Source: Methylomagnum ishizawai (lineage in GTDB: Bacteria; Pseudomonadota; Gammaproteobacteria; Methylococcales; Methylococcaceae). From it: DNA of 64,000 nt. The DNA is taken from the NCBI RefSeq assembly GCF_019670005.1, contig NZ_AP019783.1, positions 1,446,501-1,510,500 on the forward strand, written 5' to 3'. The stretch's first letter is position 1. Each line of letters starts with the position of its first letter. Of this stretch, positions 3,901 to 51,975 are shown one piece after another. The notes under the pieces were generated by a model. It was given only the letters and a program-made list of their open reading frames with translations. It did not search any database and was not told where the DNA came from. The translations under genes were made by a program, and so were the position numbers.

Positions 3901-6900
3901 ATGGCCGACCAACTCCCCGAACCCCGCTTCATCCACCTCCGCCTCCACACCGAATACTCCCTGGTCGATGGTCTCGTCGATGTGAAACCCCTGGTCAAGC
4001 GCTGCGCCAAGCTGGGGATGCCGGCGGTGGCCGTGACCGACCAGATGAACCTGTTCGCCCTGGTCAAGTTCTACAAGGCCGCGCAGGGCGGGGGCTTGAA
4101 ACCCATCGCCGGGGCCGACCTCCTGATCCACAACGAATCCGACCCGGCCACGCCCTACCTGATGCCCTTGTTCGTGCAGAACGAACAGGGCTACCGCACC
4201 CTCACCGAACTCATTTCCCGTGGCTACCGCGAGAACCAGCACCAAGGCGTGCCCCAGGTCATGGCCGCGTGGCTGGCGGACAAGAACACAGGGCTGATCG
4301 CCCTTTCCGGTGCCCGCCAAGGCCAGATTGGCCGGGCGCTGCTGTCGGGCAACCGCGACGAGGCCAAGCGTATCCTGGAACATTGGCAGGCCGTGTTCGG
4401 CGACCGCTTCTATCTGGAAGTGCAGCGCACGGGCCGACCCGGCGAGGAGGACTATATCGAGGGCACCCTCGCCCTCGCCATCGAATGCGATGCGCCCGTG
4501 GTCGCCACCAACGATGTGCGCTTCCTCGACGCCAGCGATTTCGAGGCCCACGAGGCGCGGGTCTGCATCAACCAGGGCCGGGTGTTGGACGATCCGCGCC
4601 GTCCCCGCGACTACACCGACCAGCAATATTTGAAAAGCCCGGAGGAAATGGCGGCGCTGTTCGCCGACCTGCCCGAGGCGTTGGAAAACACGGTGGAAAT
4701 CGCCAAGCGCTGCAATATCCGCATGACGCTGGGCAAGAACTTCCTGCCGCAATTCCCGGTGCCGGAAGGCATGACCCCCGCCGAATTCTTCGCCGAGGAA
4801 TCGCGCAAAGGTTTGAGGGAGCGCCTCGCCGTGCGCCCGCCCACCGGCAAGGGCACCTTGGCGCAGCGCACCCAAGCCTATGAGGAGCGGCTGGAACTCG
4901 AAATCGGCGTCATCAACCAGATGGATTTCCCCGGCTACTTCCTGATCGTGGCCGACTTCATCCAATGGGCCAAGCAAAACGGGATTCCGGTCGGGCCGGG
5001 ACGCGGCTCGGGCGCGGGTTCCTTGGTGGCGTATTCGCTCAAGATCACCGACCTCGACCCCATCGAATTCGAGTTGCTGTTCGAGCGCTTCCTCAATCCC
5101 GAGCGCGTGTCCATGCCCGACTTCGACGTGGATTTCTGCATGGACCGGCGCGACGAGGTGATCGCCTATGTCGCCGAGAAATATGGCCGCGACCGGGTAT
5201 CGCAGATCATCACCTATGGTTCCATGGCGGCCAAGGCGGTGGTGCGCGACGTGGGCCGGGTGTTGGGCCATCCCTACGGCTTCGTGGACCGCATCGCCAA
5301 GCTGATCCCGTTCGAGCTGGGGATGACCCTGGAAAAAGCCTTGCAGGACAGCGAGGACTTGAAAAAGCTCTACGACGCCGACGAGGAGGTCAAGGCGCTG
5401 ATCGATCTGGCGAAGTCGCTGGAAGGCTTGACCCGCAACGCCGGCAAGCATGCCGGGGGCGTGGTGATCGCGCCTTCGCAGTTGATCGACTTCAGCCCGC
5501 TCTATTGCGAACAGGGCGGCGACAACCTCGTGACCCAGTTCGACAAGGACGACGTGGAAGCGGTCGGCTTGGTCAAGTTCGACTTCCTGGGGCTGCGTAC
5601 CCTGACCATCATCGATTGGGCGCTGGAAACCATCAACCAGCAGCGGGCCGCGCAAAAACTGCCGCCGGTCGATATCGCCCAAATCCCGCTCGACGACCCC
5701 GACACCTACAAGCTCCTGAAAAGCTGCCAGACCACGGCGGTATTCCAACTCGAATCCCGCGGCATGAAGGATTTGATCCGGCGCTTGCTGCCCGATAATT
5801 TCGATGACATCGTGGCCTTGGTGGCCTTGTTCCGGCCCGGTCCTTTGCAATCGGGCATGGTGGACGATTATATCAACGTCAAGCACGGCAAGCAGAAGGC
5901 CGAGTATCCCCATCCCATCTTGGAACCCATTTTGCAGCCGACCAACGGGGTTATCCTGTACCAGGAACAGGTGATGCGGATTGCCCAGGATATGTCGGGG
6001 TATACGCTGGGCGGGGCGGATTTGCTACGCCGTGCAATGGGTAAGAAAAAGCCAGAAGAAATGGCGAAACAGCGCGATATTTTTGTGGAAGGCGCTGAAA
6101 AGAATGGTGTAGATAAGGATGTCGCCAATTTTATATTTGATTTGGTGGACAAATTTTCGGGGTATGGTTTTAACAAAACGGTATCTTCGGATACTAAAAT
6201 ATTTACCACGGCAGGAATAAAGAGAATAGAAGACTGCCAACCAGGGGACGAAGTCATCGCGCCGAATCCCGATGGCAGCTTCAGCCGGACCCAGGTTTTA
6301 GCTAGGCACGACCATGGTTTTGTTCCACTTTGGGAGGTGGTTTTCGATGACGGCACCCGCGAATGTTGTACCCTCGACCATAAATGGCTTACCCGACACG
6401 GACAGCTCCCGCTCTGGGCCATCCTCCAAATGGGTGAGCAAGTGTGGGGAAACCCAGCCTACAAAGCGGGCTATCCACGCCCATCAGAAACATTGTCCAC
6501 AATGTTTGAGCATGATCCATACCGGGCCGACCGCCGGCAAGGACAGGACGATGTATTGCGGAATCATCGTGCGGACTTGGGCCAAATTCAGAGAGCATTT
6601 CCAGAGTTGTCCGAGATGCCAGGAATTGCGCCGGGAAATCCGGGTGAATACCTGCAAGAATCTAAAGCATACCGAAGCGATGCGGAAAAAATATTCGGAG
6701 AATGCCAAGAAAACCGCGTCGCGCCCGGAGATACAAGAAGAACGGGCATCCCGGCTCAAACAATGGCGGGAGGATCATCCCGAACAGTTCGATGCAATCC
6801 GGGCCAAGGCCCACGCCTCGCCCAAGCTTTCCAAAATGGAGAATTGGCTGGCACCGCGGTTGATGCCCCATGGGTTTATCAGGAATACCCGCTTGGATTG

Positions 6901-8538
6901 TGGCGGGATACTCAAGCAGGTGGATTTTATAAATCACACCTTAAAAATCGCCATCGAGGTCGATGGCCCGTGGCACTTCCTGCCGGTTCGCTCGCAGAAA
7001 TCGCTTATGACAGTGCAACGCCGGGACCGAATTTTGGACAGGGAAATATTGACGCGCTCTTGGCGCTTAATCCGGCTCTCGATGGAACGTTTCAAATCCA
7101 ACTCTGGCGAGCTTATCTCTCCCAGCCTCGACCACTTATTAGCGGTCGTCGCCGCTGGCGATTGGACGGGAATACGGTGCTACGGCAGCCTGTACGAGTC
7201 ACTTTCCTGGGATGGGATCAAGGTTACGATCTTGAGGTAGCCCACCCGGAACATCATTTCCTGCTGGCCTCCGGCTTGTGCTGCTCGAACTCCCATTCCG
7301 CCGCATATGCTTTAGTTTCCTACCAAACCGCCTGGCTCAAAGCCCATTATCCCGCCGCCTTCATGGCCGCGGTCCTGTCCTCCGATATGGACAAGACCGA
7401 CAAGGTCGTCGTCTTCATCGAGGAATGCCGCCAAATGCGGCTGACCCTGTTGCCGCCCGATATCAACCGCTCCGAATTCCGCTTCACCGTGCTGCCCGGC
7501 GGCGCGATCCAATACGGGCTCGGGGCCATCAAGGGCGTGGGCGAGAACGCCATCGGCGATATCCTGGAAGAGCGCCGCCGCCACGGTCCTTATCAAGACC
7601 TCTACGACTTCTGCCAGCGCATCGATCTCAGGAAGGCCAACCGCCGGGTGCTGGAAGCCTTGATCCGGGGCGGGGCGCTGGATTCGTTCGATCCGAACCG
7701 CGCCCGCCATCTGGCCGAATTGCCCGACGCCCTCAAGGCCGCCGAGCAACACGGGGCCATGGCCGATTCCGGCCAGGACGATTTGTTCGGGCTCCTGGGC
7801 GGCGGCGTGGCCGAGGCGGCGGCGAAGCCGGCCCGGCCCGTGGTCCAGGTCGAACCTTGGGGCGAGGCCGAGCGGCTCGAACACGAAAAGAACACCCTGG
7901 GCCTTTACCTCACCGGCCATCCCATCGGCCCCTACGAGGCGGATATCGTCCAGTTCGTCACCGACCGCCTGGGGCCTTTGGCCGAGAAGCACGACAGGAG
8001 TCCCGGCACCCCCAGTTGGCAACGCCAGGAAAACAAGGTCGTGGTGGCCGGGCTGGTGGTGGAACTCCGCACCAAGCAGAACAAATCCGGCAAGCGCATG
8101 GGCTTCGCCACCCTGGACGACCGCACCGGGCGGCTGGAGGTCGCGGTGTTCTCGGAGGCGTTCGAGAAATACCGCAATTATCTGGAGAAGGACAGCTTGT
8201 TGGTGGCGGTGGGCAACCTGGGGTTCGACGATTTCGCCGGGCAATTGCGGCTGAGCGCCGAGCGGCTGTTGACTATCGAGGAAGCGCGGGCCGAGTTCGC
8301 CAAGCGTCTGACCATCGCCTGGCCGGGACCGGAAGCGGCGCTGGCGGTGGACGAGTTGCGCGAATTGCTCGCGCCCCACCGCGGCGGGGCCTGCCCGGTC
8401 CTGGTCGAATACCGCAGCCGCTCGGCGCAGGGCGTGATCCAACTGGGGCAGGCGTGGCGGGTGGTGCCGGGGGCGGCATTGCTGGCCCGGCTGGAAAAGC
8501 GGATCGGGGTGGAACGGGTGAAACTGCTTTATCGATGA
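3901..8538 (+). CDS. dnaE: DNA polymerase III alpha subunit with in-frame intein
   Basis: Replicative polymerase subunit. The open frame encodes 1545 residues; removing a 371-residue intein (residues 760-1130) leaves 1174, the normal DnaE size. The N-terminal PHP domain starts with HLRLHTEYSLVDGLVDV. The Pol III catalytic aspartates are in PDFDVDF (about residues 407 and 409). The tandem HhH region contains ALGLGAIKGVGENAIGD-like sequence, and the OB-fold contains VVVAGLVVELRTKQNKSGKRMGF. The extein junction rebuilds GYGFNK/SHSAAYALVSYQ, the conserved motif of intact DnaE. About 150 bases of extein just upstream of the intein use many A/T-ending codons (23 of 40 codons from 6061, against 4 of 20 from 5881), unlike the rest of the gene. 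As dnaE is essential, splicing is presumably active. Confidence 0.97.
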   Translation: MADQLPEPRFIHLRLHTEYSLVDGLVDVKPLVKRCAKLGMPAVAVTDQMNLFALVKFYKAAQGGGLKPIAGADLLIHNESDPATPYLMPLFVQNEQGYRTLTELISRGYRENQHQGVPQVMAAWLADKNTGLIALSGARQGQIGRALLSGNRDEAKRILEHWQAVFGDRFYLEVQRTGRPGEEDYIEGTLALAIECDAPVVATNDVRFLDASDFEAHEARVCINQGRVLDDPRRPRDYTDQQYLKSPEEMAALFADLPEALENTVEIAKRCNIRMTLGKNFLPQFPVPEGMTPAEFFAEESRKGLRERLAVRPPTGKGTLAQRTQAYEERLELEIGVINQMDFPGYFLIVADFIQWAKQNGIPVGPGRGSGAGSLVAYSLKITDLDPIEFELLFERFLNPERVSMPDFDVDFCMDRRDEVIAYVAEKYGRDRVSQIITYGSMAAKAVVRDVGRVLGHPYGFVDRIAKLIPFELGMTLEKALQDSEDLKKLYDADEEVKALIDLAKSLEGLTRNAGKHAGGVVIAPSQLIDFSPLYCEQGGDNLVTQFDKDDVEAVGLVKFDFLGLRTLTIIDWALETINQQRAAQKLPPVDIAQIPLDDPDTYKLLKSCQTTAVFQLESRGMKDLIRRLLPDNFDDIVALVALFRPGPLQSGMVDDYINVKHGKQKAEYPHPILEPILQPTNGVILYQEQVMRIAQDMSGYTLGGADLLRRAMGKKKPEEMAKQRDIFVEGAEKNGVDKDVANFIFDLVDKFSGYGFNKTVSSDTKIFTTAGIKRIEDCQPGDEVIAPNPDGSFSRTQVLARHDHGFVPLWEVVFDDGTRECCTLDHKWLTRHGQLPLWAILQMGEQVWGNPAYKAGYPRPSETLSTMFEHDPYRADRRQGQDDVLRNHRADLGQIQRAFPELSEMPGIAPGNPGEYLQESKAYRSDAEKIFGECQENRVAPGDTRRTGIPAQTMAGGSSRTVRCNPGQGPRLAQAFQNGELAGTAVDAPWVYQEYPLGLWRDTQAGGFYKSHLKNRHRGRWPVALPAGSLAEIAYDSATPGPNFGQGNIDALLALNPALDGTFQIQLWRAYLSQPRPLISGRRRWRLDGNTVLRQPVRVTFLGWDQGYDLEVAHPEHHFLLASGLCCSNSHSAAYALVSYQTAWLKAHYPAAFMAAVLSSDMDKTDKVVVFIEECRQMRLTLLPPDINRSEFRFTVLPGGAIQYGLGAIKGVGENAIGDILEERRRHGPYQDLYDFCQRIDLRKANRRVLEALIRGGALDSFDPNRARHLAELPDALKAAEQHGAMADSGQDDLFGLLGGGVAEAAAKPARPVVQVEPWGEAERLEHEKNTLGLYLTGHPIGPYEADIVQFVTDRLGPLAEKHDRSPGTPSWQRQENKVVVAGLVVELRTKQNKSGKRMGFATLDDRTGRLEVAVFSEAFEKYRNYLEKDSLLVAVGNLGFDDFAGQLRLSAERLLTIEEARAEFAKRLTIAWPGPEAALAVDELRELLAPHRGGACPVLVEYRSRSAQGVIQLGQAWRVVPGAALLARLEKRIGVERVKLLYR
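6178..7290 (+). mobile_element. Intein in DnaE, inserted at FNK/SHS
   Basis: Self-splicing protein element of 371 residues in the dnaE frame. Block A is TVSSDTKIFTTAG, followed by IEDCQPGDEVIAPN. Block B is DDGTRECCTLDHKWLT, with the TxxH pair at DnaE residues 824 and 827. Block F is GYDLEVAHPEHHFLLASG. Block G ends CCSN with +1 Ser of the extein. The first residue is Thr rather than Cys, and the penultimate residue is Ser rather than His; both are uncommon. The terminal Asn, TxxH and block-F Asp are present, so class 1 splicing is plausible. The site is three residues downstream of that used by the cyanobacterial split DnaE intein. Between blocks B and F the dnaE frame has no recognisable domain, because the nuclease is in another frame. 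Confidence 0.9.
6347..7240 (+). CDS. Out-of-frame Vsr-like (EDxHD) homing endonuclease nested in the dnaE intein
   Basis: This frame lies +1 relative to dnaE and ends in TAG within block F. It encodes 297 residues from the ATG at 6347, which is preceded by GGGAGGTGG (6332-6340), a good ribosome-binding site. An in-frame ATG at 6314 and a later one at 6512 are alternatives; the first 30 or so residues overlap intein block B and may not be functional. CPQC (residues 50-53) and CPRC (88-91) suggest a zinc-binding module. A basic helical stretch follows. The nuclease core has E165 (KMENWL), D193 (KQVDF), E204 and D206 (IAIEVDG), H210 (PWHF) and D227 (RRDRILD). This is the pattern of Vsr/DUF559-like nucleases and of EDxHD homing endonucleases. 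It would cut intein-less dnaE. Independent initiation and frameshifting are both possible expression routes. Confidence 0.8.
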   Translation: MTAPANVVPSTINGLPDTDSSRSGPSSKWVSKCGETQPTKRAIHAHQKHCPQCLSMIHTGPTAGKDRTMYCGIIVRTWAKFREHFQSCPRCQELRREIRVNTCKNLKHTEAMRKKYSENAKKTASRPEIQEERASRLKQWREDHPEQFDAIRAKAHASPKLSKMENWLAPRLMPHGFIRNTRLDCGGILKQVDFINHTLKIAIEVDGPWHFLPVRSQKSLMTVQRRDRILDREILTRSWRLIRLSMERFKSNSGELISPSLDHLLAVVAAGDWTGIRCYGSLYESLSWDGIKVTILR

Positions 8539-8571: not shown

Positions 8572-10788
8572 TCAGGGCCGGGACTGGTTGAGCAGCACCG
8601 ACACCGTGTCGGCGAAGGGATTGGCCGTGATGGCCTCGGGCTTGCCGTCGCCGTCGAGGTCGCCCAGCGCCAGGTCGCCCGGCACATAGCCGGTCTTGAA
8701 ATCCCGCTTGGGCTGGAAGCCGCCGTCGCCGTTGCCGGCCAGGACCGAGACGGTGCGGTCGCAGAAGTTGGCGGTGGCGAGGTCGGGTTTGCCGTCGGCA
8801 TCGAGGTCGGCGACCTTGACCCCGGTCGGGCACCAGCCCGTGTGGTATTGCACCGGGGGCTGGAAATTGCCGGTGCCGTCGCCGAGCATGACCAGGACGA
8901 AGCTGGTGGTGGGGGCGAGGCTTTCCGAATAATCCATGGCGATATCGGGCTTGCCATCGCCGTTCAGGTCGGCCACCGCGACCGAGGTGCAAGCGCCGCA
9001 ATAGGGGTAGAACTCCTTGATCTTACCGAAGGCTCCGCTGCCCAGGCCGGTCATCATCCAACCGGGACCGACGATATCGGGTTTGCCATCGAGATTCAGG
9101 TCGGCCACGGTGATCCTGCCGTCGTTGCCGGGCGCGGCGATATCCGGCAACGCTTGGAAGCTGCCATCGCCCTGGCCCAGTAGCAGCGCCAAGCTGTAGT
9201 AACCGTTGACGGCGAGGTCGATCTTGCCGTCGCCATTGAGGTCCGCCGCCGCGAGGGACAAAGCGCTGCGCAAGGCTTCGCCGCCCGGCGCGTAGTCCTT
9301 GCGGGGTTTGAAATTCCCATTGCCCTTGCCCAACAGCACGGACACGCTGCCGTTCCCCCCTTGGTTGGCGGTGGCGAGGTCGGTCTTGCCGTCGCCGTTG
9401 AAATCCCCCGCCGCGATCCCGACCGGGGTGGGGCCGGTGGCGGAATCCATTTTCCCCCGCAGCTTGCCATCGCCCTTGCCGAGCAGTACCGAGATGCTGT
9501 CGCTGCCCAGGTTGGCGGTGACCACGTCCAGGTGGCCGTCGCCATCGATGTCGGCCAGGAGTTCGCTGCTCACGCCAAAGTTATTGGCGCTGGGTCCGCT
9601 GCTGACGGGGTAGACGCCCTTGGCGAGCTGGGGCTTGAAACCGCCGTCGCCCCGGCCGACCAGGATCGACAGGTTGTCGTAGATCCAGTTGGGGGTGGCG
9701 AGGTCGGTTTTGCCGTCGCCGTCCAGGTCGGCGGCCAGTATCGAATAATGGCCGTTGTAGTCGTTGTTGTAGCCGTCGTCCACGTTGTAGCGGGTCGGCT
9801 GGCTTTGGAAGTGGCCGTCTTGGTTGAGCAGGACCGCCAGGGTGTTGCCATTGCCCGCGACGGCGAGGTCCGGGCGGCCATCGCCGTTGAGGTCGTCGGC
9901 GGCCAAAACGTCGCCGCGCAGCGGATAGCCCGTCTTGGCCTGGAAGCCGCCATCCCCCTTGCCCGGCAGGATCGACAGCCCGTTGTCGGTATTGCCGACC
10001 GTGGCGAGGTCGATGTTGCCATCGCCGTCGAAATCCGCCGCCGCGACCGACCAGGGGAGCGCGGCCGGGTAGTGTTTCACCGCTTGGAAGCGGCTATCGC
10101 CCCGGCCCAGCAGCACCGAAACCCGGTCCTGGCTCCAGTCGGCCAGGGCCAAATCCACGGAGCCGTCCTTGTTCAAGTCGGCGGCGACCACCGAACCGAC
10201 CTGCCCGCCTTGGAAGAGGCTGCGCTTGAACTTGAAGCTGCCGTCGCCCTGGCCCAGCAAAATCGCCACGCTCGCGCCGGTCGTGGGGTTGGTGGGCAGG
10301 GCGAGGTCCGGGCGGCCATCGCCGTTGAGGTCGGCGACCGCCAGGGCGAAGGCGCGTTCGCCGCCGGCCTGGGTTTTCGCGGGCAGGAAGCTGCCGTCGC
10401 CCTGGCCGAGCAGGACCGAGACGGTGTTGTCGTCGTAGTTGACGCTGATCAAATCCTGGATTTTGTCGCCGTTGCAATCGACCGCCCGCAACCCGGTCGG
10501 GCCTTTGCCGGTGGCGTAATCCCGTTTGGCCTTGAAGCCGCCGCCGGGTTTGCCCAGTAGCACCGAGACGCTATGGCCGTATTGGTTGGTGGTGGCGAGG
10601 TCCAGGGTGCCGTCGCCGTTGAGGTCGGCGGCGACGGAGCCGTAGGGACCCAGACCCGTGGGGTTCGGGAAGGCGATCCCGGTGAAGCGCGGTTCGGCCT
10701 GGGCCGGGGCGGCGAGGGCGAGGCACAAGCCGAGCAGGGAGGCGGACCGGGACAGCGGGACGCCGGGCAGTCGGGAGGTTGGGGACAT
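8572..10788 (-). CDS. Exported FG-GAP/VCBS-repeat beta-propeller protein
   Basis: A 738-residue protein. It opens with a signal peptide (SRSASLLGLCLALAAPAQA, cleavage after AQA) and then consists almost entirely of about 14 repeats. The consensus is VAAADLNGDGKPDLATAN...VSVLLGKGDGSF, spaced roughly 45-55 residues apart. The DxDxDG-type loops in each repeat are calcium-binding, as in integrin FG-GAP blades. Fourteen blades would be enough for two seven-bladed propellers. No catalytic domain, anchor or sorting signal is visible at the C-terminus, which ends in the last repeat (TVSVLLNQSRP). It probably acts as a secreted or surface adhesion or ligand-binding protein; the ligand cannot be told. 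It is transcribed toward dnaE and stands alone. Confidence 0.85.
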   Translation of the reverse strand: MSPTSRLPGVPLSRSASLLGLCLALAAPAQAEPRFTGIAFPNPTGLGPYGSVAADLNGDGTLDLATTNQYGHSVSVLLGKPGGGFKAKRDYATGKGPTGLRAVDCNGDKIQDLISVNYDDNTVSVLLGQGDGSFLPAKTQAGGERAFALAVADLNGDGRPDLALPTNPTTGASVAILLGQGDGSFKFKRSLFQGGQVGSVVAADLNKDGSVDLALADWSQDRVSVLLGRGDSRFQAVKHYPAALPWSVAAADFDGDGNIDLATVGNTDNGLSILPGKGDGGFQAKTGYPLRGDVLAADDLNGDGRPDLAVAGNGNTLAVLLNQDGHFQSQPTRYNVDDGYNNDYNGHYSILAADLDGDGKTDLATPNWIYDNLSILVGRGDGGFKPQLAKGVYPVSSGPSANNFGVSSELLADIDGDGHLDVVTANLGSDSISVLLGKGDGKLRGKMDSATGPTPVGIAAGDFNGDGKTDLATANQGGNGSVSVLLGKGNGNFKPRKDYAPGGEALRSALSLAAADLNGDGKIDLAVNGYYSLALLLGQGDGSFQALPDIAAPGNDGRITVADLNLDGKPDIVGPGWMMTGLGSGAFGKIKEFYPYCGACTSVAVADLNGDGKPDIAMDYSESLAPTTSFVLVMLGDGTGNFQPPVQYHTGWCPTGVKVADLDADGKPDLATANFCDRTVSVLAGNGDGGFQPKRDFKTGYVPGDLALGDLDGDGKPEAITANPFADTVSVLLNQSRP

Positions 10789-11565: not shown

Positions 11566-13797
11566 ATGAAAAAAACGTATATCTTGTTGACGGGGTTGCT
11601 GATCGCCGACTACGCCATGGCGAAACCCAAGCCGCCATTCGAAGTGACCGAGCCCGAAGCCACCCGCCCACGGTGCGCCAATTACGATGTCAACCGGAAA
11701 CCCTATTTCGGCGAAACCCATTTGCATACCGGATTATCCTTCGATGCCAGCACCCGTTTCGTCAATACCCGGCCCAACCAAGCCTATGATTTCGCCAAGG
11801 CCAAAGGGTCCTTGACCTTGCCCGATGCCAACGGCGCCCAAACCGTGAACGTGGTCATCGACCGGGCTTTGGATTGGGGGGCGGTCACCGATCATTCCGA
11901 GTTTTTCGGCGAAATGGGCGTCTGCAAGGACTATATCAATAGCAAACCCGAGGCCAGATATTCGCTCGAATGCCAGTTGCTCAACGGCGATAACTGGACC
12001 TACGCGGCGATACCCAACAACGATACCCAGTATGAGTTTTCCGGCTTGGGTTTCCAGATGCTGGTATCCCAAGGCTTGGGACCGGCTTCCTTCAACAAGC
12101 ATTTGCCGGTTTGTACCAGCAGCGCCGATAACCGGGAACAATGCGATGCCGCCGAGGCGGCGGTGTGGGGGGAAATACGCCAAGCCGCCGAAGATGCCTA
12201 TGACCGCACGCCCAATTGCACCTTTACTTCCTTCAATGCCTACGAAGTGACCTCGACCCCTTCGGGTACCACTTGGCATCGCAATGTGATTTTCCGCAAT
12301 GATAGGGTGGTCGCGAAACCCATCACCGCCATCGATATGGCGGTCGAACCCAACCCCGATGTGCAAAAAGCGCCCGCCATTTTCTGGACGTTCGATAGTA
12401 ATGGTAATTCCGTACCTCCCAAACCGGAAAACCTTTGGAATGGTTTGGATTGGTCTTGCCTGCAAGGCCACGATACCACGCCCGGTACGGCGACCCGTTG
12501 CGATGTATTGACCATCCCCCACAACACCAATATCGGGGGTGGCGTGAAAGCCCCGAATGGATCGTTCCTGATTCCGCCCTCGTTTTATCCGCCGGGTAAT
12601 GCGGCGCTGGCCGAGCAACGCGCGAATTGGGAACCCTTGGTGGAAATATTCCAGGTCAAGGGCAGCAGCGAATGCCGCTTCGATCCCCGCGCCCAAGCGG
12701 GTGTGCTGACGACCGATGAGTTTTGTAATTTTGAATTATTGGATGGGCTGGGGGCGCCCAGCGCCGGCGTGAACGGGAATACCGCGCCATCGCCCAGCGA
12801 TTTCAGCCCCAATGCCTTCGTGCGCAATGTCTGGAAGGATGGCTTGAGCCTCGCCGATAATTATAAGGATGCCGCCCATCCCAAAGGCATCAATCCGTTC
12901 AAAATGGGGGTGGTTTCCGGTTCGGACGCCCATACCGGCGTATTGGGTTGGCACCCAGAAAATAGGACTTGGCCGGGACACGCGGGTTATGACGATGCCA
13001 TTCCGACCCGCTCCGGTTCGGCGACGGAAAATAATACCGGCGGCTATACCGTCGCCTGGGCAGAGGAAAACTCCCGCGATGCTATTTTTGCCGCCATGAA
13101 AAGAAAGGAAACCTATGGCACCAGTGGCACGCGGCCCATCGTGCGGTTTTTCGCGGGCTGGGATGCCAATATGCCTAGCGACCTGTGCGCGAAGAATTTC
13201 GTGCCATACGCCTATCAAAATGGCGTGCCCATGGGCGGGGAATTGGACGCTTTGCCGAAACCCACCAACGCCAAGAAGCCCAGGTTTATCGTCGCGGCCT
13301 GGAAGGACGATATGATTAATACCCCTTTGCAGCAAATCCAGATCATCAAGGGTTGGGTGGATCCCGCCACCCAGCAAACCTACGAGGAAGTCGTCCATGT
13401 CGCGGGCGACGACGCGGCCGCAGGCGATGCCCCCGGTGGGGTCGATACCCAATGCCATAAGCTCGCGACCGGGTATGATCAACTCTGCAAGGTCTGGACG
13501 GATAAGAATTTCAACCCCAAGCAACGCGCATTTTATTATGCGCGGGTTTTGGAAACCCCGGTTTGCCGCTGGAGTACGGATATGTGCCAAGCCAATTATG
13601 GTTTGAACCCGTTGAAACCGGCCCAATGTAAAAACACCTTGAATCAACTACGCGCATCCGATAACCCGGAAGATCGGCAGAAAGCAGTCAATGGCGCGGC
13701 TTGCTGTAATAACGAAACCAGCAAATTCAATATTGTGCAGCCGGTTATTCAGGAACGAGCATGGACTTCCCCGATATGGTACGAACCCGCGCAATAA
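11566..13797 (+). CDS. Exported DUF3604 protein
   Basis: A 743-residue protein of the DUF3604 family, which has PHP-like metal-binding motifs but no established reaction. The signal peptide is KKTYILLTGLLIADYAMA. Conserved metal-ligand-like motifs follow: YFGETHLHTGLSFDA (residues ~46-60), DWGAVTDHSEFFGE (~104-117), IPHNTNIGGG and VVSGSDAHTGVLGWH. The protein is rich in cysteines (for example CRWSTDMC and ACCNN near the C-terminus), fitting an oxidising periplasm. The start has GAGG 7 bases upstream. Its 3' end overlaps the next gene by 37 bases, and that gene is in turn coupled to a HupE gene. The three are probably one operon exporting and maturing this protein, which is inference from context. 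Confidence 0.9.
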   Translation: MKKTYILLTGLLIADYAMAKPKPPFEVTEPEATRPRCANYDVNRKPYFGETHLHTGLSFDASTRFVNTRPNQAYDFAKAKGSLTLPDANGAQTVNVVIDRALDWGAVTDHSEFFGEMGVCKDYINSKPEARYSLECQLLNGDNWTYAAIPNNDTQYEFSGLGFQMLVSQGLGPASFNKHLPVCTSSADNREQCDAAEAAVWGEIRQAAEDAYDRTPNCTFTSFNAYEVTSTPSGTTWHRNVIFRNDRVVAKPITAIDMAVEPNPDVQKAPAIFWTFDSNGNSVPPKPENLWNGLDWSCLQGHDTTPGTATRCDVLTIPHNTNIGGGVKAPNGSFLIPPSFYPPGNAALAEQRANWEPLVEIFQVKGSSECRFDPRAQAGVLTTDEFCNFELLDGLGAPSAGVNGNTAPSPSDFSPNAFVRNVWKDGLSLADNYKDAAHPKGINPFKMGVVSGSDAHTGVLGWHPENRTWPGHAGYDDAIPTRSGSATENNTGGYTVAWAEENSRDAIFAAMKRKETYGTSGTRPIVRFFAGWDANMPSDLCAKNFVPYAYQNGVPMGGELDALPKPTNAKKPRFIVAAWKDDMINTPLQQIQIIKGWVDPATQQTYEEVVHVAGDDAAAGDAPGGVDTQCHKLATGYDQLCKVWTDKNFNPKQRAFYYARVLETPVCRWSTDMCQANYGLNPLKPAQCKNTLNQLRASDNPEDRQKAVNGAACCNNETSKFNIVQPVIQERAWTSPIWYEPAQ

Positions 13798-14753
13798 TCG
13801 TGGAGGCGCTGCGTAAACCCGCCCTGCACTTTTTAATACTAGGTACATTCCTTTATGGCGGGGAGGCTTATTATAAAACACGGGCTTATCCAAGCCCTGG
13901 ATCGCCGAAACAAGTCGTTATTCCCCATTATGAGATAGAAAAAGCGCGACAAGAGTTTTTCGCGGTCAATAACCGCCTGCCTGATGCGCGGGAACAAGAG
14001 GCGATGAATAGCGCCTTGGTGGATAACGAGGTGCTTTATCAATATGCCTTGTATCTGGGGTTGAATAGCCAGCCTGTCGTACAAAGACGGCTGGCCCAGA
14101 TCGCGGCGTTTGTCGAGGAAAACCCGGACGAGGCCAAGTCCATGGAGACCTTGGCCTCGCAGGCGCAGCGGATCGGCTTGCAGGAAGGGGATTTGGTGGT
14201 CCGCAGGATGATGATCGACGGTGCCCGCCGTCTCATCCGCGCCGGGATTTTGGCACGGTTGCCGGATGATGAGTTATTACAGGCGTATTTGAAGGAGAAT
14301 CCAGGCCAGTTCCAGCGGCCTGGAAAAACCCGCTTGATTCAACTCACTTTCAACGCTTTCGTGCATGGTAAGGATGCCGAGGCCAAAGCCAACGAGGTTT
14401 TGTCGAAGATTAGGAAAAACGCTTTGTCGCCCGAGCAGGCGGTGCGACTGGGCGATGATTTTTGGATCGATTCTTCCATACCCTTGGCCACGGACCAGGA
14501 ATTGATGCGGGATTTCGACCAAGGTTTTGTCATGGCTATCAAGGCCATCCCGCTGAATCTCTGGTCCGGCCCGGTGAAATCGCGTTATGGGCAACATTTG
14601 GTTTTGATCCAAGAGCGTACCAGCCCTTATGTTCCCGCTTTGGACGAGATACGCAAGGAAGTCAAACAACGCTTATTGCAAAAATTGGCGGATGAATGGT
14701 TGGCTTTGCGATTACAGCAATTGAAGCAGGAATTCCAGGTGAGGGTGCAATGA
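13761..14753 (+). CDS. Membrane-anchored PpiC-type peptidyl-prolyl isomerase
   Basis: A 330-residue protein with an N-terminal membrane anchor (LHFLILGTFLYGGEAYYKT). A SurA/PrsA-like helical chaperone region follows (EIEKARQEFFAVNNRLPDAREQEAMNSALVDNEVLYQYAL). It ends with a parvulin-like domain (~residues 175-300: DDELLQAYLKENPGQF, FDQGFVMAIKAIPLNLWSGPVKSRYGQHLVLIQER). The start at 13761 is supported by AGGA six bases upstream, so the gene begins inside the DUF3604 coding sequence; 13776 is a second in-frame ATG. It is probably a periplasmic foldase dedicated to the preceding secreted protein. Its stop overlaps the HupE start (ATGA). Confidence 0.88.
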   Translation: MDFPDMVRTRAIIVEALRKPALHFLILGTFLYGGEAYYKTRAYPSPGSPKQVVIPHYEIEKARQEFFAVNNRLPDAREQEAMNSALVDNEVLYQYALYLGLNSQPVVQRRLAQIAAFVEENPDEAKSMETLASQAQRIGLQEGDLVVRRMMIDGARRLIRAGILARLPDDELLQAYLKENPGQFQRPGKTRLIQLTFNAFVHGKDAEAKANEVLSKIRKNALSPEQAVRLGDDFWIDSSIPLATDQELMRDFDQGFVMAIKAIPLNLWSGPVKSRYGQHLVLIQERTSPYVPALDEIRKEVKQRLLQKLADEWLALRLQQLKQEFQVRVQ

Positions 14754-15715
14754 TGCGTTTATTATTATGGCTCGCCTTGCTGAATCTGTTCAGCATTCCT
14801 GGATACGCCCATCAATTCGCCCCGGCCCTATTGGAATTGCAAGAATCGAATGGCGACCAGGTGGGGGTACGCTGGAAAGAGCCGCTCATCCGGGTATTGG
14901 GTAGCCAATTGCAGCCGGTATTGCCCGTGGATTGCGAAGCGCTGGATACGCCTGCGGTCAGCGAGGAAAATACCGGGCGGGTATCGAAATGGACCCTGTA
15001 TTGCCCCGGCGGCTTGGTCGGCAAAAAACTGGAGGTGGCGAATATCGCCAGCAGCGGTGCCAATGTATTATTAAGGGTCAGATTTTTGGATGGCCATGTT
15101 TTGCGCCAAATATTAAGTCCGGCGGAGCCGGGCATCACTATTCCAGATATTGAGGATCGATGGGCGGTATTCTGGAATTATGCCAAGCTAGGCATCGAGC
15201 ATATTATGACCGGAACCGACCATTTGCTGTTTGTATTGGGTTTGACCCTATTGGTGCCCGGCAAACGGTTATTGGCAACGGTCACGGCGTTCACCGTGGG
15301 GCATAGCATTACCTTGGCTTTGGCGGCGCTGGGTTGGATCCATGTATCGACCACGGCGATAGAAGCCGGGATCGCCTTGAGTATTTATATGCTGGCGGTG
15401 GAACTTGCCGGTCGCGATAGGCGCGGCTTCTTATGCCGCTATCCTTGGGGAATGGCCGGGGTGTTCGGGTTATTGCATGGGCTTGGATTCGCCGGGGCCT
15501 TGTCGCAGGTGGGTTTGCCGGATGGGGAAATCCCATTGGCCTTGTTCGCGTTCAATATCGGCATAGAATGTGGGCAAGTGGCGTTTATCACCGTGGTATT
15601 GCTATTATGGGGCGGCTTGAGGAGGATGCCCTATCGCTGGCCAGAATATATACGGCTAATCCCGGCCTATTCAATCGGCTCGCTTTCGGTATTTTGGTTC
15701 TTTCAGCGTATCTAA
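14750..15715 (+). CDS. HupE/UreJ-family membrane protein
   Basis: A 321-residue protein. It has a signal peptide (LLLWLALLNLFSIPGYAHQF) and a ~120-residue extracytoplasmic domain. The C-terminal half is a six- or seven-helix membrane domain beginning GIEHIMTGTDHLLFVLGL, the metal-binding HxxxGxDHxLF signature of HupE/UreJ proteins. A later HGLGFAGAL adds another conserved His. The family is linked to nickel or other metal uptake, mostly beside hydrogenases and ureases; neither is present here. Translational overlap with the isomerase gene and position after DUF3604 suggest metal supply to that protein. This is inference. Confidence 0.9.
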   Translation: MMRLLLWLALLNLFSIPGYAHQFAPALLELQESNGDQVGVRWKEPLIRVLGSQLQPVLPVDCEALDTPAVSEENTGRVSKWTLYCPGGLVGKKLEVANIASSGANVLLRVRFLDGHVLRQILSPAEPGITIPDIEDRWAVFWNYAKLGIEHIMTGTDHLLFVLGLTLLVPGKRLLATVTAFTVGHSITLALAALGWIHVSTTAIEAGIALSIYMLAVELAGRDRRGFLCRYPWGMAGVFGLLHGLGFAGALSQVGLPDGEIPLALFAFNIGIECGQVAFITVVLLLWGGLRRMPYRWPEYIRLIPAYSIGSLSVFWFFQRI

Positions 15716-48615: not shown

Positions 48616-49574
48616 ATGCAGACATCCATCATATCAATCAAGCACTTGGTCAGCGAAGCGCACTGCTACGAGACCATCCGGCAACTGCGCTGGCAAGAGG
48701 GCGTCTACTGCCCGCACTGCGACGGGGGCGAGGCCATCCGGCGCGGCTACGACGGGCCGGATCGGCACCTGCGGCGCTACCAGTGCAAGGCGTGCGGTAG
48801 GCGCTTCGACGACCTGACCGGGACGGCGCTGTCCGGGCACCACCAGCCCTTGTCCGTATGGGTGTTATGCCTGTACTTCATGGGCCTAAACCTGTCCAAC
48901 GCACAGATTGCCCAGGAACTGGACCTGAACAAGGACGACGTGCATTCCATGACGGAATGTCTGCGCGGGGGTCTCGCCCAAAAAAAGCGCCTGTGACGCT
49001 ATCGGGGGTCGTCGAGTGCGACGAGACCTACGTCGTGGCCGGACACAAGGGCCAGCCGGAGAAGGTCGCCGAAGCCGGACGCCCGCCGCGCCGACGGCGG
49101 CTGAAGGGCGCACGGGGGCGCGGCACCAAAGCCACGGAGAAGCCGCCCGTTTTCGGCATGATCCAGCGCTCCGGCGAGGTGGTCATCCGGCTGCTCGACA
49201 ACGTCCAACAAAAGACGATCAAGCCCTTGATCTCGCAGACCGTCGCGGCGGGGACGCTGGTGAACACCGACGAATATGCCATCTACGGCAAGCTGACCGA
49301 CTGGGGCTACGGACACAAGACGGTCAACCACTCGAAGGGCGAGTATGCCCGTGACGAGGACGGCGACGGCTTCCACGAGGTCCACGTCAACACCATGGAA
49401 GGCTTCTGGTCGTTGCTCCGCTCCTGGCTGCGGCCCCACCGGGGCATCTCGCAGGCCAAGTTGCCGCTATACCTGGGCTTCTTCGAATTCGTCTACAACG
49501 CCAAGCGGCGCGGCAAGCGATTGTTGTCCGCACTGCTGGAAGGCTTGCTCAAGAAGACCCCGGAATCCATATAG
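48616..49574 (+). CDS. IS1595-type transposase made by -1 frameshift
   Basis: Frame A (48616-48996) gives 126 residues ending RL. It has a zinc ribbon (YCPHCDGG and YQCKACGRRF) and a helix-turn-helix-like region (LNLSNAQIAQELDLNKDDVHSM). The rest, ECDETYVVAGHKG, NTDEYAIYGKL, HVNTMEGFWSLLRSWLRPHRGIS and LGFFEFVYNAKRRGKRL, lies in the -1 frame to 49574. Joining at A_AAA_AAG (48981-48987) gives a 319-residue full transposase, with the catalytic D/D and N/E residues from frame B. A 6-bp stem TCGTCG-agtg-CGACGA starts about 20 bases downstream. Frame B alone has no good start. A simple sequencing or inactivating frameshift in the A-run remains possible. Confidence 0.85.
48981..48987 (+). promoter_or_regulatory. 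Candidate -1 ribosomal frameshift site A_AAA_AAG
   Basis: In the first transposase frame the codons read CAA AAA AAG, an exact A_AAA_AAG heptamer. A -1 slip here enters the second frame, which then encodes the catalytic domain. The downstream hairpin TCGTCG/CGACGA could stimulate it. The same heptamer is well known in IS1 and IS3 family transposases. Confidence 0.7.
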
Positions 49575-49634: not shown

Positions 49635-49977
49635 ATCCGTCGGGCGCGGGGGATGGCCTTTGTCCAACACGGCGGGATAAAGCGGGCACGGCGGCGGCGG
49701 GCGTGTATCGAATTGGCGAGAGATGCGATGCGGAGTCGGCATCGGGCGCTCCCTGGCGGATACCGTGGTTTTGCGGTTGGACAAGATAGGGCCTTTGGGT
49801 TCGGATAGACTCGACTATATTTCCTGGTATCCTTCAATCCCTCTTGGGATCGATATCTCCAGACCGGTCGCCATCTGGCGGGTGGGGGGCAAGGCTTGCT
49901 TGGCGTTTTTAATATGGGATGGAACCCACTGGGTTTCCGGCCATCGATGTGGGCGGCGCTCACCGGAGAAAAAAATA
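49635..49977. other. 343-base gap upstream of the second DUF3604 gene
   Basis: An open frame continues upstream of the DUF3604 gene to 49723 but has no ribosome-binding site, and the signal peptide starts only at 49978. A/T-rich sequence near 49815-49835 may hold the promoter. I see no RNA gene or repeat. Confidence 0.55.
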
Positions 49978-51975
49978 GTGATCGAATTGATAAAGCAGAG
50001 AAAACCATCATATCTGATGTTTTTGGCTGGCTGGGCGGGCCTGTCGCCCCTGGCCCAGGCCGGGCACACCGCGCGCATGTTGGAACCCACCTATGTGGTC
50101 GCGGGCCAACCGGCCGCCTTCAAGTACGAGCTGACCGTCGGCGAGCAGGGGATTCCGGTGGGCGGGAGCGTTGTGGTGGGTTTCCACCACGCCTCGAAAT
50201 GGCAGCCGCGGTTGCAATTCGGCCAGCCCACCTTGCCCGCCTACGTCAAGGTGACGGGCAAGGTCGCCAATAATTTCAAGATGAGGTTTCAAAATGTCGG
50301 TCCCACCTCTTTCGCCAAGGCGGAGGACAACCTATACCACATGGTGATCGTCGCCACCGTGAGCAAGACCGCCCTGGTGCCGGGCGAGGTGGTCACCATC
50401 AGCATCGGCAGCGCCCAATACGGGGGCATATTCCAGATCATGGCGGACGACCACCATGAATTGCGGATCATGGCCGACACCAACGCCGACGGCAAATTCG
50501 AATGGGTGGCCTCGCCCCAGTTCGACATCATCCCGGCATCGACCCACCACCTGCTGATGGTCGCGCCTTCGCAAGTCACCGTGGGCCAGCCGTTCAATGT
50601 CCAAATCCATGCCGAGGACGCCCACAACAACTTTGTCAACGGCACCTATTTCTCAACCCCCGTGCCCACCTATAACGGGAAGGTCACGATCATCGACGAG
50701 AGCGAGGGGGTGCTGGCGACCGGCGTCCAGATCACCGATGGCTGGGCGAGCGTGCCGGTACGGGTATCCAAGCCCGGTCCCCATTGGCTCAAGGTCAGCG
50801 ACGGGGCGTCGGGCGATGCCGGCGGCAGCGGCGAAGGGGGCGGAACCTCCGGGGGCAACGATGGGACGTTGGCGGGTGTCAGCAACCCCTTCAAAGCCTT
50901 CGCGGCGGACCCCGAATACAAGATATATTGGGGCGATGTCCACGGCCATACCAAGGGGTCCGATGGCTTGGGCGAATCCCAGGAGCAATATTTCTGGTAC
51001 GCGCAAAAAGCCCAGCATTTGGATATGTGCGCCCTGAGCGACCATGGCCAGAAAATGTGGCCGCAAACCATGGCCGCCGTCCGCTCGTTCTATCAGCCGG
51101 GGGAATTCGTGACCATCCTTGGTGCCGAGGCCAGTTTGAAAGGGGGGCATGTCAATGTCTATTTCAGGGGGGATACCGCCGCGCTCCTTCCAAACAAGTG
51201 GAACCTGATGAACCATGTCACCTTCATCAATGCGGTCGCCCAGCAATTCGGGACCGACGCCCTCATGGGACCGCACGCCTTCTCCCATGCCACCACCGAA
51301 CCCTATCCTTTCAGCTTCTGGAACGACACGGTCGAGCGCTTCGTCGAGGTTTATTCGATGCATGGCACCAACGAATATCCCGGCAATGCGCGGCCGATGG
51401 CGCAGGCCATCCAAGACCCCGCCCATTTCCTGCAAGGGGGTTTGGTCGCGGGGCGGCGCTTCGGGGTGATCGCTTCCGCCGATGGCCATGATTCCCATCC
51501 GGGGCGGTCGTTCGGCGGGGTTTATCCCACCGGGCTGGTGGCGTTCCGCGCCAAGGAACTGACGCGGGACGCCATCTACGACGCTTGGCGGAACTATCAG
51601 GTCTACGCCACCAGCGTGGAGCGCATCTACCTGGATTTCTCGATCAATGGCTCGTGGATGGGGGCGGCGCTGACCACCGGCGATCCGGTCCAGGTGCATT
51701 ACGAAGTGATCGGGCAGGATAAAACCTTCAAGGCCGAGCTGCTCCGCAATAACATGGTCATCAGGACCGATACCACGACCAACGGGACGGTCACGGTCGA
51801 TTTCCAGGATACGCCCCCCGATCCCAATAATTATTATTATCTGAGGGTGTCGCAGGCCAATGGCGAACGGGCTTGGTCCACCCCGATCTGGGTCGATAAG
51901 CCGCCCGCCCCGGATGCGCCGCCCGCCGCGGCCAAAGCACCGCGCTCGGCAAAGAAGCGGGCACGCTCTTCCTAA
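49978..51975 (+). CDS. Exported DUF3604 protein with N-terminal beta domains
   Basis: A 665-residue protein from the GTG at 49978. This start gives a signal peptide (ELIKQRKPSYLMFLAGWAGLSPLAQA) and has CGGAG about 10 bases upstream. Residues ~30-270 form beta-sandwich domains (MLEPTYVVAGQPAAFKYELTVGEQGIPVGGSVVVGF, LMVAPSQVTVGQPFNVQIHAEDA). A Gly/Ser linker (GDAGGSGEGGGTSGGNDG) leads to the DUF3604 catalytic-like domain: YWGDVHGHTKGSDG, MCALSDHGQ, GPHAFSHATTEP, IASADGHDSHPGR. Metal-ligand histidines are conserved. The C-terminus is a basic tail (APRSAKKRARSS). It differs from the 11566 protein by its domain fusion and lacks the PpiC and HupE partners. Confidence 0.85.
   Translation: MIELIKQRKPSYLMFLAGWAGLSPLAQAGHTARMLEPTYVVAGQPAAFKYELTVGEQGIPVGGSVVVGFHHASKWQPRLQFGQPTLPAYVKVTGKVANNFKMRFQNVGPTSFAKAEDNLYHMVIVATVSKTALVPGEVVTISIGSAQYGGIFQIMADDHHELRIMADTNADGKFEWVASPQFDIIPASTHHLLMVAPSQVTVGQPFNVQIHAEDAHNNFVNGTYFSTPVPTYNGKVTIIDESEGVLATGVQITDGWASVPVRVSKPGPHWLKVSDGASGDAGGSGEGGGTSGGNDGTLAGVSNPFKAFAADPEYKIYWGDVHGHTKGSDGLGESQEQYFWYAQKAQHLDMCALSDHGQKMWPQTMAAVRSFYQPGEFVTILGAEASLKGGHVNVYFRGDTAALLPNKWNLMNHVTFINAVAQQFGTDALMGPHAFSHATTEPYPFSFWNDTVERFVEVYSMHGTNEYPGNARPMAQAIQDPAHFLQGGLVAGRRFGVIASADGHDSHPGRSFGGVYPTGLVAFRAKELTRDAIYDAWRNYQVYATSVERIYLDFSINGSWMGAALTTGDPVQVHYEVIGQDKTFKAELLRNNMVIRTDTTTNGTVTVDFQDTPPDPNNYYYLRVSQANGERAWSTPIWVDKPPAPDAPPAAAKAPRSAKKRARSS

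Follow-up and report, generated by a model that had tools for sequence, protein, structure and literature searches.

What holds an exported DUF3604 protein, a membrane-anchored parvulin of the PpiC type, and a HupE_UreJ_2 permease-type protein together in one set of overlapping genes? The question is raised by a stretch of 64,000 nucleotides from Methylomagnum ishizawai (contig NZ_AP019783.1, positions 1,446,501 to 1,510,500; the whole stretch is hereafter the window), in which DUF3604 and PpiC overlap by 37 bases and PpiC and HupE by 4 bases (ATGA). The three open reading frames (ORFs) and both overlaps, reported by a first-pass annotation made from the sequence, are borne out by the ORF coordinates of the window. 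The trio recurs far beyond chance, and the three genes very probably constitute one functional unit of the cell envelope. The explanation favoured here, with a probability of roughly 45%, is an envelope module composed of a PHP hydrolase, its own foldase, and a metal-capturing permease that serves metallation.

Recurrence of the trio

The M. ishizawai genome contains three copies of the trio, the DUF3604 proteins of the two further copies being 53% (L013) and 40% (L014) identical to that of the window. Within the same family, DUF3604 is found at E up to 1e-20 in 6 of 38 genomes, and every such locus possesses a HupE within about 3 kb. In one trio copy of a sister species (G018; L021, 4421–8044), both DUF3604 and HupE are in pieces and PpiC is still open; judging from the sequence, DUF3604 and HupE possibly decay together.

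At the class level, 369 genomes were sampled, with DUF3604 in 23 and HupE_UreJ_2 in 101. The trio-type PpiC was searched with an alignment (A4) of PpiC from trio members and near-trio loci. Matches at E up to 1e-12 exist in 185 of the 369 genomes and are mostly general parvulins below 90 bits; a score of at least 95 bits defines the trio type in this sample. By this cut, trio-type PpiC is present in 19 of the 23 DUF3604 genomes versus 2 of the 346 others (Fisher p 6e-26, a value that, like the one below, ignores relatedness). Around the 25 trio-type PpiC loci of the class, HupE is situated within 2 kb in 23 and DUF3604 within 4 kb in 17. A weaker match of 89.9 bits in G149 (L148) also lies beside HupE and a diverged DUF3604 gene.

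The phylum sample consists of 259 genomes, 207 of them at 90% completeness or more and 5% contamination or less. PpiC matches at E up to 1e-24 occur in 16 genomes, two of which (G201 and G405, 89 bits) were set aside as generic; in each of the other 14, the best match scores 200 bits or higher. Trio-type PpiC is present in 14 of the 15 DUF3604 genomes versus none of the 244 others (p 3e-22). All 19 trio-type PpiC loci have both partners close by, HupE at no more than 2 kb and DUF3604 at no more than 3 kb, and PpiC is located within 3 kb of 20 of the 25 DUF3604 loci. HupE by itself is more frequent (51/259 genomes), so the family as a whole has further partners. Genomes are shared between the class and phylum samples (G000, G044, G123, and others are in both); in the locus counts, two rows of G510 were merged into one locus, and at most three or four DUF3604 candidates and six or nine PpiC candidates were scored per genome. 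The trio is also present in gammaproteobacterial genomes of 1.2–1.3 Mb (G212 and G319). The neighbourhood survey that the first-pass annotation had proposed thus finds a recurring trio rather than one unique to a single genome.

Linked and unlinked copies

Among the 80 named DUF3604 loci, which are the best 80 among the matches listed and not a random sample, 17 contain the full trio, three contain DUF3604 with a PpiC match, one has no ORF called, and 59 are without PpiC or HupE in the available flank, indicating that physical linkage is not obligatory. The full trios derive from Gammaproteobacteria, Caulobacteraceae, and Myxococcota, and their gene orders vary, including DUF-PPI-HUP, PPI-HUP-DUF, convergent, and divergent arrangements.

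Because the 59 lone loci looked contrary to a unit, the genomes of HupE-less DUF3604 loci were searched for PpiC elsewhere. These 35 genomes represent 36 of the 38 named loci labelled HupE-less, L109 and L130 being left out as their genomes were already included. Trio-type PpiC is present in 30 of the 35, with a best match of at least 150 bits each, and all 30 possess at least one copy away from the query DUF3604 locus. Of 34 such PpiC loci retrieved, 11 adjoin both DUF3604 and HupE (one DUF3604 being a fragment and one diverged), 16 HupE only, five DUF3604 only, and two neither, so HupE is adjoining in 27.

Around the 24 PpiC–HupE or lone PpiC loci without a nearby DUF3604, no other gene is found in more than five loci. 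The larger neighbour groups stem mainly from Acidobacteriota closely related to one another; four of the 24 loci, one of them gammaproteobacterial, have a symporter-like ORF in common. The neighbours of the best 80 named loci form clusters of HupE (13), PpiC (10), and, by eye, short-chain dehydrogenase-like (19), cytochrome P450-like (7), and luciferase-like oxidoreductase (7) proteins, the rest numbering six or fewer. The dehydrogenase, P450, and oxidoreductase neighbours are tentatively attributed to the overall gene content of lipid-catabolic genomes. Taken with the class and phylum samples, the in-trans counts show that the dependence runs mainly one way: PpiC–HupE hardly exists without DUF3604, while DUF3604 may be unlinked or, less often, without the pair.

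Inheritance of the linkage

On the DUF3604 tree, which comprises 125 proteins (87 of them labelled; the other 38 have too little flank, and L021 was left out), the trio label requires 11 changes, at least eight of them on starred branches; the linkage has therefore been repeatedly gained or lost. The protein trees of the three partners are congruent across 38 trios, with rank correlations of 0.48, 0.35, and 0.61 that were reached by none of 300 permutations each, uncorrected for species history; L021 and L104, the latter on the same contig as L055, were left out. Furthermore, the three paralogous trios of M. ishizawai have matching neighbours in all three trees. In no tree do the same-family trios L017 and L018 group with the window type; their neighbours are L052, Pseudomonas GM48, or members of the Caulobacteraceae.

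Predicted structure of DUF3604

Neither DUF3604, as a single sequence or a profile, nor HupE gave a usable match when searched against PDB sequences; hence, fold comparison was needed for both proteins. The AlphaFold2 (AF2) model of DUF3604 has a mean predicted local distance difference test score (pLDDT) of 79.9 and a predicted template modelling score of 0.89. Foldseek placed 3e38 on top at E 1.8e-3, with no match at E of 1e-3 or below, and VIA-align gave 3e38 a Z of 15.4 (root-mean-square deviation (rmsd) 3.9 over 234 aligned residues), followed by 3e0f with 9.3 and the next row with 3.8. Both 3e38 and 3e0f are predicted metal-dependent phosphoesterases. PF02811 gives no match to the window protein at E of 1 or below.

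The PHP-like His/Asp motifs noticed in the first-pass annotation, which had also called for this structure prediction, are present and strongly conserved. Nine residues (H52, H54, D60, H110, E227, H238, H319, D454, and H456) are shared without exception by 123 of 125 relatives; in the remaining two, the N-terminus lies outside the available sequence. By their order along the chain, and not by coordinates, they match the metal-ligand pattern of PHP enzymes (HxH, D/H, H, E, H, H, DxH). DUF3604 also has conserved cysteines, which would fit a disulphide-containing periplasmic protein. From the model, a role of DUF3604 as an exported, metal-dependent hydrolase of the PHP fold is very likely; its chemistry is probably that of a phosphoesterase. 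Given the Sec-type leader, the metal should be met in the periplasm.

Elsewhere in the window (49723–51975, plus strand), a second, diverged DUF3604-like PHP protein (32.9 bits) retains all nine ligand-type residues. It adjoins neither PpiC nor HupE and stands beside a transposase-like ORF (48858–49574, by eye); L016 holds a similar diverged protein.

Domain architecture of HupE

In the AF2 model of HupE, residues 1–114 form a separate N-terminal domain, which resembles ZrgA (Foldseek E 6.2e-4; Z 10.1, rmsd 2.9 over 102 residues), PA4063 (Z 9.7), and the copper-bound Ang-1 domain 9gce (Z 8.6). The best Z of the helical membrane part, 9.8, is within the chance range for helical bundles, and five of its residues (H131, D137, H138, H165, and H223) are invariant in all 60 rows.

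With the cleavage point placed by eye according to the leader pattern, 80 of 85 rows have His as the first mature residue (54 of 58 earlier and 26 of 27 new rows, two fragments lacking the region being uncounted). The earlier rows were read from the first alignment, and one of them shifts and reads Ile in the later alignment; the counts include two duplicated loci (L104 = L055 and L172 = L070). With a first His and a β-sandwich, the modelled N-terminal domain is of the metal-binding type described for anglerases. The five remaining rows have Asp (L146, L147, L152, L153, and L158), four of them in pairs not adjoining DUF3604 and L158 in a trio. A first His as a mark of DUF3604-linked HupE only was considered and dropped; it is also found in HupE with other partners, and Asp in the trio L158.

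A fourth HupE_UreJ_2 of M. ishizawai, also His-first, is situated behind DUF4331 and TPR genes (L015, 3329–7172). Several families of exported proteins seem to have HupE_UreJ_2 as a partner.

PpiC as a membrane-anchored parvulin

The catalytic pocket of parvulins contains two His residues plus Asp/Cys. In the A4 alignment, the second His (H279) is invariant in 28 rows and D232 is kept in 90% or more; at the column of the first pocket His, the window protein has Gln (by eye). PpiC might be a holdase no less than an isomerase. The membrane-anchored prolyl isomerase of the first-pass annotation is supported by the Rotamase_2 match and the N-terminal hydrophobic anchor (Table 1). At L147, a 132-aa ORF (675–1073) between PpiC and HupE apparently encodes a small four-helix protein (by eye).

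Function of the module and rival explanations

Computation shows the module with its conservation, the folds as predicted, and the residues of ligand type; from here on, we infer the phosphoesterase chemistry, the client relation of PpiC, and which metal is handled and in which direction. DUF3604 would be exported unfolded via Sec and, once in the periplasm, adopt the fold of a metallohydrolase of the PHP superfamily, with phosphoesterase as the most likely activity; the anchored parvulin would presumably assist its folding. The His-first N-terminal domain of HupE would capture a transition metal, which would be handled via the membrane part for the same pathway. Such a metal would most likely metallate the PHP enzyme or keep it loaded, either at the periplasmic face or by transmembrane movement. 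The one-way dependence described above fits metallation of DUF3604.

Several observations weigh against this explanation. Besides the 59 unlinked named loci, PpiC is missing from 4 of the 23 DUF3604 genomes of the class (G048, G130, G214, and G222, two of which are only 72 and 81% complete), and trio-type PpiC is missing from 1 of the 15 of the phylum. It is also missing from 5 of the 35 genomes with a HupE-less DUF3604 locus, a number that includes as misses two Polyangium genomes with 70 of 129 and 70 of 149 candidates scored. The count of 30/35 has no control from DUF3604-less Myxococcota or Acidobacteriota genomes. Conversely, G300 and G397 of the class hold PpiC–HupE without a DUF3604 match, both pairs being near a contig end. 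At the residue level, HupE begins with Asp in 5 of 85 rows, the window PpiC has Gln at the first pocket His, and the nine DUF3604 ligands are kept equally in 44 of 44 linked and 43 of 43 unlinked genes, so that the enzyme centre is independent of an adjoining hupE. No metal content or activity was found for any DUF3604 protein in the literature searched. Finally, HupE-type proteins are described as uptake permeases, with a direction away from the periplasm, in the available text of PMC12537917.

That direction fits metal acquisition, a rather unlikely explanation according to which DUF3604 acts outside the cytoplasm, hydrolysing or stripping a ligand that bears metal or is phosphorylated, the N-terminal domain of HupE captures the freed metal, its permease part imports it, and PpiC folds the envelope parts. 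It agrees with the proposal that anglerase-HupE captures metal for import, with the copper and nickel binding measured for Ang-1 (PMC12537917, available text), and with a fold class that includes ZrgA, the zinc-binding protein of an uptake operon (PMC9820375, available text). Moreover, PpiC and HupE mostly stay paired where DUF3604 lies elsewhere. However, the pair hardly occurs without DUF3604 (0/244 and 2/346), while DUF3604 may be without the pair, and partner genes restricted to a single family of enzymes are easier to reconcile with maturation than with uptake in general; nor does any riboswitch family reach the gathering score in the window or L013–L015. Metallation of DUF3604 is therefore favoured over acquisition. 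Also rather unlikely is a stricter form of metallation, in which a dedicated periplasmic machine, the His-first anglerase-permease, loads the co-encoded PHP hydrolase with a specific parvulin assisting. If true, this machine would be a system that inserts metal into an exported PHP enzyme, with some HupE_UreJ_2 proteins delivering metal outward or laterally, not inward.

Less probable again is that HupE and PpiC work for one another or for a broader range of exported proteins, DUF3604 being just their commonest companion and the link reflecting shared regulation or lifestyle. PpiC–HupE without a nearby DUF3604 in 16 of the 34 fetched loci and other HupE_UreJ_2 proteins with other neighbours, such as DUF4331 and TPR in M. 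ishizawai, speak for it; the lack, at the 24 loci without a nearby DUF3604, of any other gene found in more than five and the tracking of DUF3604 by trio-type PpiC from genome to genome speak against it. Chance or an ancestral gene order devoid of functional meaning has next to no probability. Its only point is the existence of unlinked DUF3604 genes, and it is contradicted by the surveys, in which the same partners recur in differing orders and orientations in Pseudomonadota and Myxococcota, co-occur in trans, and reach the Fisher values given above, relatedness ignored. With regard to the exported metalloenzyme system of the first-pass annotation, the conserved unit, the predicted exported metal-dependent hydrolase, and the metal-binding-type domain of HupE stand. 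The supply of metal by HupE to DUF3604 is a candidate role only, as HupE is described as an uptake protein (PMC12537917, available text) and the DUF3604 ligands are equal without a linked hupE; a metal supplier is one option for HupE.

The locus and its surroundings

The features of the trio are collected in Table 1. Gene calls are ORF-based; the longest HupE ORF starts at 14696, and the start at 14750 was chosen for its clean signal peptide (by eye). At E of 1 or below, neither DUF3604 nor HupE matches an NCBIfam family, and an Rfam scan of the window and L013–L015 at the gathering score found tRNAs only.

Table 1. Positions of the three genes and their parts in the window.
Feature	Position	Strand	Basis
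DUF3604 (PF12228) exported protein, 743 aa	11566..13797	+	ORF; Pfam 405.9 bits vs cut-off 20.4
DUF3604 leader, Sec-type signal peptide, no twin arginine	11566..11622	+	judged by eye
DUF3604 span aligned to PHP-like phosphoesterase 3e38	11680..13323	+	model residues 19–566, Z 15.4
PpiC-type (Rotamase_2) parvulin, 330 aa, one N-terminal hydrophobic anchor (by eye)	13761..14753	+	Pfam 42.1 bits vs 27; alignment A4
HupE_UreJ_2 (PF13795) metal permease-type protein, 321 aa	14750..15715	+	Pfam 153.1 bits vs 24.5
HupE predicted N-terminal periplasmic domain, mature residue 1 = His, ZrgA/Ang-1-like β-sandwich	14810..15151	+	AF2 model, pLDDT 89.5
HupE membrane part, invariant H131 D137 H138 H165 H223 (mature numbering)	15152..15712	+	model helices; 60/60 rows

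Upstream of the trio, the divergent neighbour (8572–10788, minus strand) is a 738-aa exported protein with FG-GAP-like repeats (by eye), preceded by a 1545-aa DNA polymerase III alpha-type ORF (3901–8538, plus strand) with an intein-like insertion ahead of a SHSAAYA motif (by eye). Three AMO/PmoA-type genes make the M. ishizawai genome look like that of a methanotroph.

Comparison with known systems

All three families are known, and the trio is a module built of known parts. The module was not found in print: no link of DUF3604 with HupE or PpiC appeared in the literature searched, a body of text with most subscription journals outside it. In the full texts, DUF3604 appeared in one table row and PF12228 was not named. 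Thus, for a widespread and practically unstudied family, the predicted PHP fold, the foldase, and the metal-capturing permease give a testable function, and the HupE_UreJ_2 anglerase proteins, described in 2025, gain DUF3604 as a strongly linked candidate partner. The anglerase neighbours reported in the available text of PMC12537917 are mostly proteins of unknown function, followed by DUF4198, indigoidine synthase A-like, and PfkB proteins; DUF3604, "PpiC", and "prolyl" are absent from that text, its supplement apart.

The best structural match of the DUF3604 model, BVU_3505 of Bacteroides (3e38), is a PHP-like phosphoesterase whose function is itself only predicted, and it has no sequence match to DUF3604 by profile search of the PDB. 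The nearest characterised analogue found is Sb-PDE from Sphingobium TCM1, a secreted PHP phosphodiesterase that is probably exported via Sec and contains 2.1 equivalents of zinc (PMC5460133, as far as its text was available). It is also inhibited by thiol reductants. Nevertheless, Sb-PDE has 441 aa and PF02811, in contrast to the PF12228 membership of the window protein, and the relationship is one of superfamily and export only.

For the N-terminal domain of HupE, ZrgA/PA4063 (8ezw, 8f1b, and 7ahw) is the closest fold; unlike HupE, it is a free-standing zinc-binding protein of an ABC importer without a fused permease (PMC9820375, available text). The Ang-1 and Ang-2 anglerases, as presented in the available text of PMC12537917, share with the window HupE the PF13795 membrane part, the first His, and the β-sandwich N-terminal domain. 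HupE/UreJ-2 domains are described there as nickel permeases and anglerase-HupE as capturing metal for uptake, and RbAng-1a, with His as its first mature residue, binds copper and nickel with dissociation constants of 73.6 nM and 220 nM, respectively. Its linker is at residues 176–184, whereas the N-terminal domain of the window HupE comprises about 114 residues.

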